A stretch of 64,000 nucleotides of DNA from Flavobacterium aquaticum. GTDB taxonomy: Bacteria > Bacteroidota > Bacteroidia > Flavobacteriales > Flavobacteriaceae. The stretch's first letter is position 1; each line of letters starts with the position of its first letter. Shown here one piece after another: positions 7,802 through 49,635 of the stretch. The translations under genes were made by a program, and so were the position numbers. The stretch covers positions 62,001 through 126,000 of the forward strand of contig NZ_QLMI01000007.1 in NCBI RefSeq assembly GCF_003259835.1, in the 5' to 3' direction. Under the pieces are notes generated by a model. The model did no database searches and was not told the origin of the DNA. It worked only from the letters and a program-made list of their open reading frames with translations.

Positions 7802-8416
7802 ATGTTTGAACTGCTAGACATTATTGGAACATTAGTATTTGCTATTTCAGGTGCTTTGACTGCTATTTACAAAAAATTAGATTTGTTTGGCGTATATTGT
7901 ATAGCTTTTGTAACGGCTTTAGGTGGAGGAACGGTTCGCGATGTCATGATAGGAAGAACGCCAGTAGGATGGATGTTAGATATCGATTATGTTTACATTA
8001 TTACCCTTGGATTTTTTCTTTCAATTGTTTTTAATCGCTATTTAGAGCGTTTACGTATCTCCATGTTTTTATTTGACACGATTGGATTAGGGGTTTTTAC
8101 CTTAATTGGTTTAGAAAAAGGTTTGGAATTTGGACTAAGCCCAGTTATTTGTGTAATCTTAGGAACTATTACGGCTACTTTTGGAGGTGTTATTCGCGAT
8201 ATTTTGTGTAATGAAATTCCGGTTTTGTTCCGAAAGGAAATTTATGCTACGCTTTGTATTGCTGGGGGAATTTTGTTCTTCTTATTACAAGAGTTACAAA
8301 TACAAAGCAATATTATTTCATTAATAGTCGCGGTTTTTATTATTTCTTTCAGATTAATAGCCTTTAAGTACAATTGGAGTTTACCTATAGGCTCTGTTTT
8401 TGTAAAAAAAGAATAA
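7802..8416 (+). CDS. Trimeric intracellular cation channel (TRIC/UPF0126) family membrane protein
   Basis: A 204-residue inner-membrane protein of the UPF0126 family, whose members form TRIC-like trimeric cation channels. About seven helices make up two homologous halves. Each half carries the glycine-rich signature: [17 protein letters not shown] in the first and [16 protein letters not shown] in the second. I chose the ATG at 7802 because a -7 promoter element overlaps the longer GTG-initiated form and because [17 protein letters not shown] is the usual family N-terminus. The ion and physiological role in bacteria are not settled. Its last 32 bases overlap the end of the convergent rdgB gene. 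Confidence 0.85.
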
Positions 8417-8966
8417 GTTCTTTTACAGCAATTCCTCTATGACTAATGGTTGATTTTTCTTCCATAGTCAATTCAGCAAAGGTTTTTTCATATCCATCAG
8501 CGACAAAAATTGGATCGTAACCAAAACCGTTGGTTCCGATTTTTTCGCCAATTATTTTTCCGTTAATGATTCCTGTAAATAAGTTTTGTTTACCGTTTAG
8601 GTTTAGTGCAATAACGGTTTTAAAATTAGCTTTTCTATTCGATTTGCCTTTTAATTCCGATAAAAGTTTATCCATATTATTGTTGGCATCCTTTTGTTCG
8701 CCTGCATATCTTGCAGAATAAACTCCAGGAGCTCCGTTTAAAACTTCGACTTCTAAACCGGTGTCGTCAGCAAAACAATCGTAACCATAGTTGGAAGTAA
8801 CGTAATTAGCTTTTAAAATCGCATTCCCTTCAATGGTATCAGCTGTTTCTGGGATATCTTCGGTGCAACCAATTTCTTCTAAGCTTAAAATTTGGATAGT
8901 ATTGGGAACTAAAGCCTGAATTTCCTGAATTTTATTTTTGTTGTTAGATGCAAATACGAGTTTCAT
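8385..8966 (-). CDS. rdgB: XTP/dITP diphosphatase (RdgB/HAM1)
   Basis: A house-cleaning pyrophosphatase that hydrolyses dITP, XTP and similar damaged purine nucleotides to monophosphates. The protein has 193 residues, the normal length. [14 protein letters not shown] at the N-terminus is the substrate-binding Ser/Thr-x-Asn-x-x-Lys motif. FADDTGLEV carries the metal-binding and general-base acids, and NGFGYDPIF and SHRGIA complete the site. The frame extends 42 codons further upstream, but that part covers the small RNA and is not conserved in character; the ATG at 8964-8966 gives the family N-terminus. A TATCTTTG element lies 19 bases upstream. Confidence 0.93.
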
Positions 8967-8985
8967 GAAAAATGATTTAAAAAAG

Positions 8986-8993
8986 CAAAGATA
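8986..8993 (-). promoter_or_regulatory. -7 promoter element of rdgB
   Basis: TATCTTTG on the minus strand, 19 bases before the rdgB ATG. A TTG at the end of the small RNA's U-tract (9010-9012) lies 16 bases upstream, so the small-RNA terminator and the rdgB promoter seem to overlap. Confidence 0.55.
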
Positions 8994-9005
8994 CGAAATG
9001 TATAA

Positions 9006-9074
9006 AAAGCAAAAAGTCGAGGTGGAGCCCCCGACTTTTAAGGTGAACGTGTAACCACATTTCTGTGTCGTTCG
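9006..9074 (-). ncRNA. Candidate small structured RNA (two hairpins, own promoter and terminator)
   Basis: On the minus strand the predicted transcript begins near 9073 with GAACGACACAGAAATGTGG. GAACG (9069-9073) pairs with CGTTC (9045-9049). Inside that, CACA-GAAA-TGTG (9056-9067) makes a small hairpin with a GNRA tetraloop. After a short single strand with CACCTT comes AAAAGTCG...CGACTTTT (9012-9039), an 8-base-pair stem extended by G-C pairs, followed by TTTTTGCTTTTT, as in an intrinsic terminator. A strong promoter precedes it. The size and place fit an independent RNA of about 65 nucleotides. It might belong to the Flavo-1 class described in flavobacteria, but I cannot confirm that. The alternative is a 5' leader of rdgB, which has its own promoter. 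Confidence 0.6.
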
Positions 9075-9077
9075 GTG

Positions 9078-9107
9078 CAAAGGTAATTGCATTTATTGAT
9101 TTACCAA
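9078..9107 (-). promoter_or_regulatory. Promoter of the candidate small RNA (TTG-N19-TACCTTTG)
   Basis: On the minus strand TTG (9105-9107), a 19-base spacer and TACCTTTG (9078-9085) form a near-ideal Bacteroidota promoter. No coding start follows within 110 bases, which is why the transcript is called an RNA. Confidence 0.65.
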
Positions 9108-9179
9108 GCTTTTTTGAATTTTTATTTTATCAGTGAATTTTTTTAGGCTTAAAATTTATAATAAAAACTTTTTTCTTTA

Positions 9180-9187
9180 TACTTTTG
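9180..9187 (+). promoter_or_regulatory. -7 promoter element of the oxoamine synthase gene
   Basis: TACTTTTG matches TAnnTTTG, 27 bases before the ATG at 9215. No TTG is seen at 17-23 bases upstream. Confidence 0.45.
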
Positions 9188-9214
9188 CTTCGTTTTTAAC
9201 ACCTATTATATATC

Positions 9215-10474
9215 ATGGTAAAAGATTTATTCGAAAGAATTCAAAACAATAAAGGTCCGTTAGGAAAATGGGCTTCACAAGCAGAAGGATATTTTGTATT
9301 CCCTAAATTAGAAGGCGAATTAGGTCCGAGAATGCAATTTCAAGGAAAAAATATTTTAAACTGGAGTTTGAATGACTATTTAGGATTAGCAAATCATCCA
9401 GAAGTACGTAAAGCAGATACCGAAGCAGCAATGCAATTTGGAGCGGCTTACCCAATGGGAGCTCGTATGATGAGTGGTCACACAAAATATCACGAACAAT
9501 TAGAACAAGAATTAGCTGCTTTCGTAATGAAAGAATCGGCTTATTTATTAAACTTTGGTTACCAAGGAATGGTGTCTATCATTGACGCTTTGGTTACTAA
9601 AAACGATATCATTGTTTATGATGTTGATTCGCATGCTTGTATTATTGATGGTGTACGTTTACACATGGGAAAACGTTTCACATACAAGCACAACGACCTT
9701 GAAAGTATGGAGAAAAACCTTCAAAGAGCTACTAAAATGGCTGAAGAAACTGGTGGAGGAATTTTATTCATTACAGAAGGGGTTTTCGGAATGCGAGGAC
9801 AGCAAGGTAAATTGAAAGAAATTGTTGCCTTGAAAGAAAAATACAATTTCCGTTTGTTAGTTGATGATGCACATGGTTTTGGAACACTTGGTAAAACAGG
9901 TGCTGGAGCAGGAGAAGAGCAAGGTTGTCAAGACGGAATTGATGTTTATTTTTCAACTTTTGCAAAATCAATGGCAAATATTGGTGCATTCGTTGCTGCC
10001 GATAAAGATGTTATCGATTATTTAAAATACAACTTACGTTCGCAAATGTTTGCCAAAGCGTTACCAATGATTCAAACTATTGGTTCATTAAAACGTTTAG
10101 AGTTATTGCGTAATTCATCTGAAATTAAAGATAAATTATGGGTAAACGTAAATGCATTACAAAACGGACTAAAAGAAAAAGGATTTAATATTGGTGATAC
10201 AAATACTTGTATTACACCAGTTTATCTTGAAGGTTCTATTCCAGAAGCAATGATTATGGTAAACGATTTACGTGAAAACTACGGAATTTTCCTTTCAATT
10301 GTAGTGTATCCTGTAATTCCAAAAGGTATTATTTTATTGAGAATGATTCCTACGGCTTCTCACACAATCGAGGATATTAATGAAACATTAACAGCTTTTG
10401 AAGCAATTCGTGAAAAATTAGTAAACGGAACGTATGCTAAAATTGCAGCTTCAACTGTTGAAAATGTAGAATAA
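9215..10474 (+). CDS. Alpha-oxoamine synthase, serine palmitoyltransferase-like
   Basis: A pyridoxal-phosphate enzyme of 419 residues that condenses an amino acid with a fatty acyl thioester and releases CO2. H140 (DVDSHACI) should stack on the cofactor, D217/H220 (VDDAHGFG) bind it, and K251 (STFAKSMANIG) is the Schiff-base lysine. The N-terminal 50 residues resemble Bacteroidota serine palmitoyltransferases rather than BioF or Kbl. In flavobacteria such enzymes start sphingolipid or sulfonolipid (capnine) synthesis, so the amino acid could be serine or cysteate; the sequence alone does not decide. No other lipid gene is adjacent. A hairpin terminator follows and is shared with the convergent gene. 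Confidence 0.82.
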   Translation: MVKDLFERIQNNKGPLGKWASQAEGYFVFPKLEGELGPRMQFQGKNILNWSLNDYLGLANHPEVRKADTEAAMQFGAAYPMGARMMSGHTKYHEQLEQELAAFVMKESAYLLNFGYQGMVSIIDALVTKNDIIVYDVDSHACIIDGVRLHMGKRFTYKHNDLESMEKNLQRATKMAEETGGGILFITEGVFGMRGQQGKLKEIVALKEKYNFRLLVDDAHGFGTLGKTGAGAGEEQGCQDGIDVYFSTFAKSMANIGAFVAADKDVIDYLKYNLRSQMFAKALPMIQTIGSLKRLELLRNSSEIKDKLWVNVNALQNGLKEKGFNIGDTNTCITPVYLEGSIPEAMIMVNDLRENYGIFLSIVVYPVIPKGIILLRMIPTASHTIEDINETLTAFEAIREKLVNGTYAKIAASTVENVE

Positions 10475-49552: not shown

Positions 49553-49628
49553 GAGCTATTTCCTGCTGTACGTTCTATCTTTTTGTTTTTAAAGGAAAAA
49601 CAAAAAGGATGCCACTTCCATCAGGGCT
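49553..49628. repeat. Palindromic intergenic repeat (GAGCTATTTCCTGC...TCAGGGCT)
   Basis: The core CTTTTTGTTTTT (49579-49590) and AAAAACAAAAAG (49596-49607) make a perfect 12-bp hairpin with a 5-base loop. The flanks GAGCTATTTCCTGCTGTACG and GGATGCCACTTCCATCAGGG match what I remember of a repeat found between genes in many Flavobacterium genomes. Confidence 0.65.
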
Positions 49629-49635
49629 AAAAAAT

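Follow-up and report, generated by a model that had tools for sequence, protein, structure and literature searches.

The locus considered here lies on the minus strand of a 64,000-nucleotide stretch of Flavobacterium aquaticum DNA (contig NZ_QLMI01000007.1, positions 62,001 to 126,000; hereafter the window), where a short segment predicted to form two stem-loops precedes rdgB. Does this segment belong to rdgB, as a leader or as coding sequence, or is it a gene of its own? We consider, with a probability of about 0.7, that it encodes a small regulatory RNA (sRNA) which stands alone and acts in trans, and which occurs in part of the genus Flavobacterium, where natural selection has kept it. The segment is conserved, its structure is backed by covariation, it carries promoter and terminator signals, and it is independent of its neighbours; from these observations we infer its transcription, its mode of action, and the parts that serve as seed and as protein dock. 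Judged from the sequences, it is very probably a functional free-standing non-coding RNA, and action in trans by base pairing is likely. The kind, trans-acting sRNA, is known; the family has no Rfam entry and may not have been published, the open-licence literature, surveyed in part, having yielded no description of this RNA.

Read from 9107 to 9007 on the minus strand, the segment comprises a TTG, 19 nucleotides (nt), the box TACCTTTG, the hairpin GAACG-A-CACA-GAAA-UGUG-GUUACA-CGUUC, a linker, an 11-bp hairpin with the loop GCUCCA and a T-rich tail (Table 1). A preliminary description of this DNA, made from its letters alone, had proposed a minus-strand promoter of the form TTG-N19-TACCTTTG, and both of its elements are present. 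The motif alone is weak evidence, because the window holds 8 copies of TTG-N19-TAnnTTTG, where shuffles lead one to expect 2.6. In the 77 homologous loci of the RNA, TAnnTTTG was found at the -7 place in 76. For F. psychrophilum a -7 box from -12 to -5 has been reported (PMC9723704), and the same placement would make the first G of the P1 arm GAACG position +1. The predicted transcript (9073-9007) folds with -22.3 kcal/mol and a z-score of -3.39, which none of 200 shuffles equalled, while the entire interval of the preliminary description (9006-9107) reached z -2.68, with 5/200 shuffles as good. Both RNAalifold and single-sequence folding gave two stem-loops, and a terminator scan of 8900-9300 on both strands returned a single site, 9039-9012, against 0.2 expected. 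The proposed order of a GAACG/CGUUC stem with a GAAA loop, then a second stem and T-rich sequence, is borne out by this fold and terminator.

The preliminary description had also named conservation and compensatory changes in related genomes as the points to examine; they were found, with the RNA in 70 of 398 genus genomes and two-sided changes at 11 of 20 base pairs. The latter were counted in alignment A5 (90 rows, 60 distinct sequences), which was fitted to a covariance model. Standard pairs occupy 96.2% of its 1169 paired cells compared to 80.3% after shuffling, two-sided changes occur at 7.4 pairs in shuffles, and the covariation score is 0.466 compared to 0.169. None of 500 shuffles reached any of five measures, and 3' partners slid out of register scored 0.09 or less. 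Since A5 was fitted to the model it leans towards structure, and the shuffle counts are not probabilities, because related sequences can exceed such shuffles. RNAalifold applied to A5 recovered all three helices, with 15 of 20 pairs and compensatory changes at 10 of those. Helix P2 shows two-sided changes in all four pairs, with 99.6% of cells paired, and occurs in three alternative sequences (CACA/UGUG, UUCC/GGAA and CCUG/CAGG), which suggests at least two helix-wide changes; in P1, columns 9/32 show GC, CG, UA, AU and UG. A first, unfitted MAFFT alignment of 12 sequences was 100% paired and its covariation score lay above all of 500 shuffles. Among the 60 distinct sequences, the tetraloop is GAAA in 46, GCAA in 12 and a pentaloop GUAAA in 2 (GNAA form in 58), the bulge is GUUACA in 57 and GUUACG in 3 with GUUAC present in all, and the pair closing the loop GCUCCA is C-G in 43, G-C in 15 and U-A or U-G in 2.

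The distribution of the RNA was followed by sequence and by structure. BLASTN at E below 1e-9 matched 15 of 150 genus genomes, own genome included, and in 8 of these the match was limited to the -7 box and the RNA. Mean pairwise identity over 15 named loci was 0.86 for the RNA compared to 0.60 and 0.61 for its flanks (0.55 shuffled); over the 38 loci of the GAGG sub-type it was 0.90 compared to 0.55 and 0.49 (0.53 shuffled). Covariance model R2 was seeded with 12 sequences (alignment A2) out of 18 distinct core sequences; six were kept out because MAFFT had mis-set their P1 stem, and all six were recovered as matches and included in A5. With R2, the RNA was present at 19 of 80 named rdgB loci, its named carriers including F. 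sasangense, F. proteolyticum, F. odoriferum, F. cheniae, F. tibetense, F. terrae and F. amnicola. At E 0.001, R2 matched 71 of 398 Flavobacterium genomes; the match in G651 (L226, 33.8 bits) has neither the GCUCCA loop nor an upstream TAnnTTTG box and was dropped from the counts. Model R3, built from the 90 rows, also matched 71 of 398 at this threshold, 70 strongly (64.6-92.6 bits) and G708 with 30.4 bits; this last and an additional low-scoring match in G124 (34.1 bits) are excluded from the 70 carriers. The R3 scores are sharply bimodal, as these two are the sole further rows. Each carrier has one strong match, the RNA being single-copy in the own genome as well; the exception is G069, with two identical matches near contig ends, counted as one genome.

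Outside the genus, two overlapping samples of 397 and 253 family genomes were searched. R2 at E 0.1 matched 17 of the 397 besides the own genome (24.6-37 bits), and R3 at E 0.001 matched 6 of the 253 (27.1-32.6 bits). Ten alignments were examined letter by letter (10 of 13 loci searched, a check that excluded L151-L155, L250 and L251): the score came mostly from the terminator and the loop GCUCCA occurred in none, L146 having the letters GUUACA and L142 the loop GCUCAA. Neither rdgB nor the synthase gene that is divergent from the RNA in the window was found in any of L138-L155. We rejected these candidates as unproven homologues on account of the terminator-borne score and the missing GCUCCA; a far-diverged homologue may exist outside the genus, and diverged members may be missed because large searches use stricter filters. 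Plasmids and phages gave no BLASTN match to the window's RNA, and viral contigs no exact match to two core patterns of it.

Table 1. Features of the sRNA locus and of its surroundings (window positions; for the last row, positions within the loci named)
Feature	Position	Strand	Basis or remark
-33 element TTG of the putative sRNA promoter	9105-9107	minus	sequence; 19-nt spacer to the -7 box
-7 element TACCTTTG	9078-9085	minus	sequence and conservation
Predicted sRNA transcript, about 63-67 nt	9073 to about 9007	minus	start inferred; models R2 and R3 match 9011-9078
Helix P1, 5' arm GAACG (pairs with 9045-9049)	9069-9073	minus	P1 cells 100% paired
Helix P2, 5' arm CACA (pairs with 9056-9059)	9064-9067	minus	covariation
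GNRA tetraloop GAAA	9060-9063	minus	conservation
Helix P2, 3' arm UGUG	9056-9059	minus	covariation
Asymmetric 3' bulge GUUACA	9050-9055	minus	conservation
Helix P1, 3' arm CGUUC	9045-9049	minus	covariation
Variable linker ACCUU	9040-9044	minus	15 forms in 60 distinct sequences
Intrinsic terminator hairpin, 11 bp, then T-rich tail	9012-9039	minus	terminator scan; covariation in upper pairs
Terminator loop GCUCCA, candidate seed	9023-9028	minus	same in 60/60 distinct sequences
Separate -7-like box TATCTTTG before rdgB	8986-8993	minus	sequence
rdgB (Ham1 family), next gene downstream, outside the RNA	8385-8966	minus	PF01725 220.2 bits; NF011398 323.9 bits (cut-off 272)
Alpha-oxoamine-synthase-like gene (SPT/KBL/BioF type), divergent, outside the RNA	9215-10474	plus	PF00155
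Flavo-1 RNA	49555-49632	minus	79.1 bits; just downstream of a TA-dinucleotide tract on its strand
Bacteroidete tryptophan peptide leader RF01692	60139-60267	minus	78.4 bits
GAGAG sub-type copies of the RNA	L183 1501-1568; L185 2030-2097; L198 2033-2100		GAGAG stem, CCUG/CAGG helix, bulge GUUACG

A promoter and a terminator of its own, conserved independently of the neighbouring genes, are what is expected of a trans-acting sRNA, and the parts of the structure suggest how it could work. A housekeeping (sigma-A type) promoter would start the RNA at the first base of P1 and the intrinsic terminator would end it about 65 nt further on. P1 would protect the 5' end. The 5' module (P1, GUUAC bulge, P2, GNRA loop) most likely stabilises that end and, through GUUAC and GNRA, most likely docks a protein. 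The terminator hairpin would present the loop GCUCCA, most likely the seed for messenger RNA (mRNA) sites containing UGGAGC, and pairing at these sites would change mRNA translation or stability. Pairing through this invariant C-rich loop is plausible, and we give it an even chance of being the main seed, on the ground that this exposed loop stays invariant though its closing pair switches between C-G and G-C. The other C-rich candidate of the preliminary description, CACCTT in the linker, is less likely to be the seed because the linker is variable.

Several observations weigh against a trans-acting, base-pairing RNA. UGGAGC was found in none of 57 gene starts of the window. Nine metalloprotease loci of the own genome were also considered, which came down to seven distinct gene starts (-120 to +40), L249 repeating L244 and the start in L245 lying too near an end; none of the seven contains UGGAGC or GGAGC, which is a weak test, and their duplex energies fell within the spread of the 57 window genes, as computed with simple open reading frame calls and no accessibility term. 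The invariant GUUAC and GNRA would be equally compatible with protein binding and with base pairing. Only 23 of the 77 homologous loci have a -33 TTG, located upstream of the -7 box at a spacing of 16-22 nt (most commonly 19). In the unfitted alignment of 12, two-sided changes reached 3 of 20 pairs, which was not above shuffles (159/500 as good). Finally, R3 at E 0.001 gave no match in 327 of 398 genus genomes, so the RNA does not serve a function common to the whole genus.

Assuming a trans-acting sRNA, is it one already described? Guerin et al. (2021) reported 85 newly described RNAs of F. psychrophilum, the Rfp series, among which Rfp18 is "widely conserved in the genus" and, by prediction, uses its third stem-loop for pairing; when it is deleted, two metalloprotease mRNAs are less abundant in stationary phase (PMC9723704). 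Compared by description only, Rfp18 is, like the RNA studied here, an independent structured Flavobacterium sRNA whose pairing is predicted via a stem-loop. That the two are identical, or that our RNA is another Rfp RNA, appears doubtful and would concern its identity rather than its mode of action, overlapping as it does with the trans-acting sRNA proposed here: Rfp18 is described with a third stem-loop whereas this RNA is predicted to have two, and no complement of GCUCCA was found at the seven metalloprotease gene starts examined here. F. psychrophilum is probably not among our 398 genomes, since its published species marker (PMC4005812) was found in 0/398 with up to one mismatch. Candidate non-coding RNAs of F. 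columnare have been reported in the supplement of PMC5395568. A further relative in kind is FopS of Bacteroides thetaiotaomicron (PMC11697453), which by its description shares a length of about 65-70 nt, housekeeping promoters and an intrinsic terminator end, but comes as 14 paralogues whose 5' seed is single-stranded, where this RNA is single-copy with a paired 5' hairpin; the multicopy state and single-stranded 5' seed of the FopS/GibS type were thus not found here. It may, though this is less likely than not, be a new sRNA family other than Rfp18, with a 5' hairpin that docks an RNA-binding protein and the terminator loop GCUCCA as its only seed, its loci differing by lineage and its loops, fold and promoter kept. 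Flavobacterial small RNAs are little catalogued, and the host itself is without an Hfq match; a compact RNA with a covariation-backed structure, a candidate seed and a set of carrier and non-carrier genomes would offer a direct route to sRNA function in flavobacteria, and the covariance model could place Rfp18, a protease regulator of a fish pathogen, inside or outside the family.

The RNA could instead act on a protein, as a decoy or scaffold, for example with the host's single RRM protein binding the GUUAC bulge, the GNRA loop and the GCUCCA loop. We regard this as unlikely. Bulge, tetraloop and terminator loop are invariant on freely covarying stems, as binding sites would be, and the absence of UGGAGC from the window and metalloprotease gene starts points the same way. 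The own genome encodes one RRM_1 protein and has no match to Hfq, and RbpB, which binds sRNAs in Bacteroides, is of the RRM class. The binding of Bacteroides sRNAs by RbpB is described in PMC11697453. However, each molecule offers one presumed site and each genome one gene, whereas decoys such as CsrB carry their sites repeatedly. Moreover, a terminator loop that is exposed and whose letters never change has the usual look of a seed.

A role in cis, as a 5' leader or attenuator of rdgB, is very improbable. The RNA does lie directly upstream of rdgB in the window, and it is upstream of rdgB at the 19 named loci mentioned above, but 61 of the 80 showed no match within flanks of up to 1.5 kb, and rdgB has its own -7-like box TATCTTTG in the window, a separate element that the preliminary description had rightly pointed out. 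The genomes carrying the RNA fall into GAACG-like (29, the window's type), GAGG-like (38) and GAGAG (3) types, for which flanks of 1.5-2 kb, shorter at contig ends, were fetched and neighbour families checked by Pfam on one representative each. rdgB is absent from the flanks of 15 of the 29 GAACG-type genomes, and neither rdgB nor the synthase gene lies within those of the 38 GAGG-type genomes, where LpxD-, PrfB-, DLH-type or other genes are found instead. The GAGAG type adjoins a lactamase-fold gene, and in two of its three genomes rdgB follows about 1.7 kb downstream, with a gene of opposite orientation in between. The synthase-like gene adjoins the RNA divergently in 26 of 29 GAACG-type genomes and in 0 of 41 others, a frequency that may reflect descent only; of 27 named loci where the synthase gene lies upstream of rdgB at a distance of at most 1.5 kb, 9 lack the RNA. 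Neighbours thus change while the RNA's own -7 box stays (76/77), and therefore it is not a leader of rdgB and not a coding region, in agreement with the small structured RNA, not necessarily a leader of rdgB, first proposed for this site. Its occurrence at differing loci speaks strongly against an rdgB leader as a general function and fits a trans-acting RNA. That the segment codes for a small peptide, or extends RdgB at its N terminus, is hardly credible: in the window (open reading frame 8385-9092) and at 7 of 19 other named loci the rdgB frame does stay open across the RNA, so that the initial statement that no reading frame is present fails for the window itself, but an in-frame stop within the RNA or ahead of rdgB at 11 of the 19 (L084 was unscored), length changes of one or two bases, the two-sided helix changes and the loci away from rdgB argue against coding.

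Two further observations concern the surroundings. The product of the synthase-like gene is below the cut-offs of all 11 matching NCBIfam models, the best being serine palmitoyltransferase (294 compared to 640 needed). In the GAGG sub-type (L186-L225), a T-rich tail like TATTTTATA is mostly kept over the 10 or so bases that follow the terminator, after the T run, and farther flanks do not align.

An Rfam search, as the preliminary description had advised, placed no family of Rfam 15 on the RNA in the window at gathering score. No match covered the RNA in 10 homologous loci either, the sole match there being a Flavo-1 elsewhere. With E up to 10, four chance-level matches appeared in 8900-9250 (14-17 bits compared to 44-60 needed), none over the RNA proper, the nearest sub-threshold match, RAGATH-30, covering the promoter. 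The suggestion that the RNA belongs to the Flavo-1 class has to be given up, as RF01705, with a membership cut-off of 42 bits, gave no match in 8900-9250 even at E 10. Flavo-1 and a trp leader are the two Rfam matches of the window at gathering score, both away from the sRNA. Flavo-1 is likewise a small structured RNA of Flavobacteriaceae, but it is present in many copies in the genome whereas the sRNA is single. In the own genome Flavo-1 scores above the cut-off at 16 places, three of which lie within 600 bases of a contig start.
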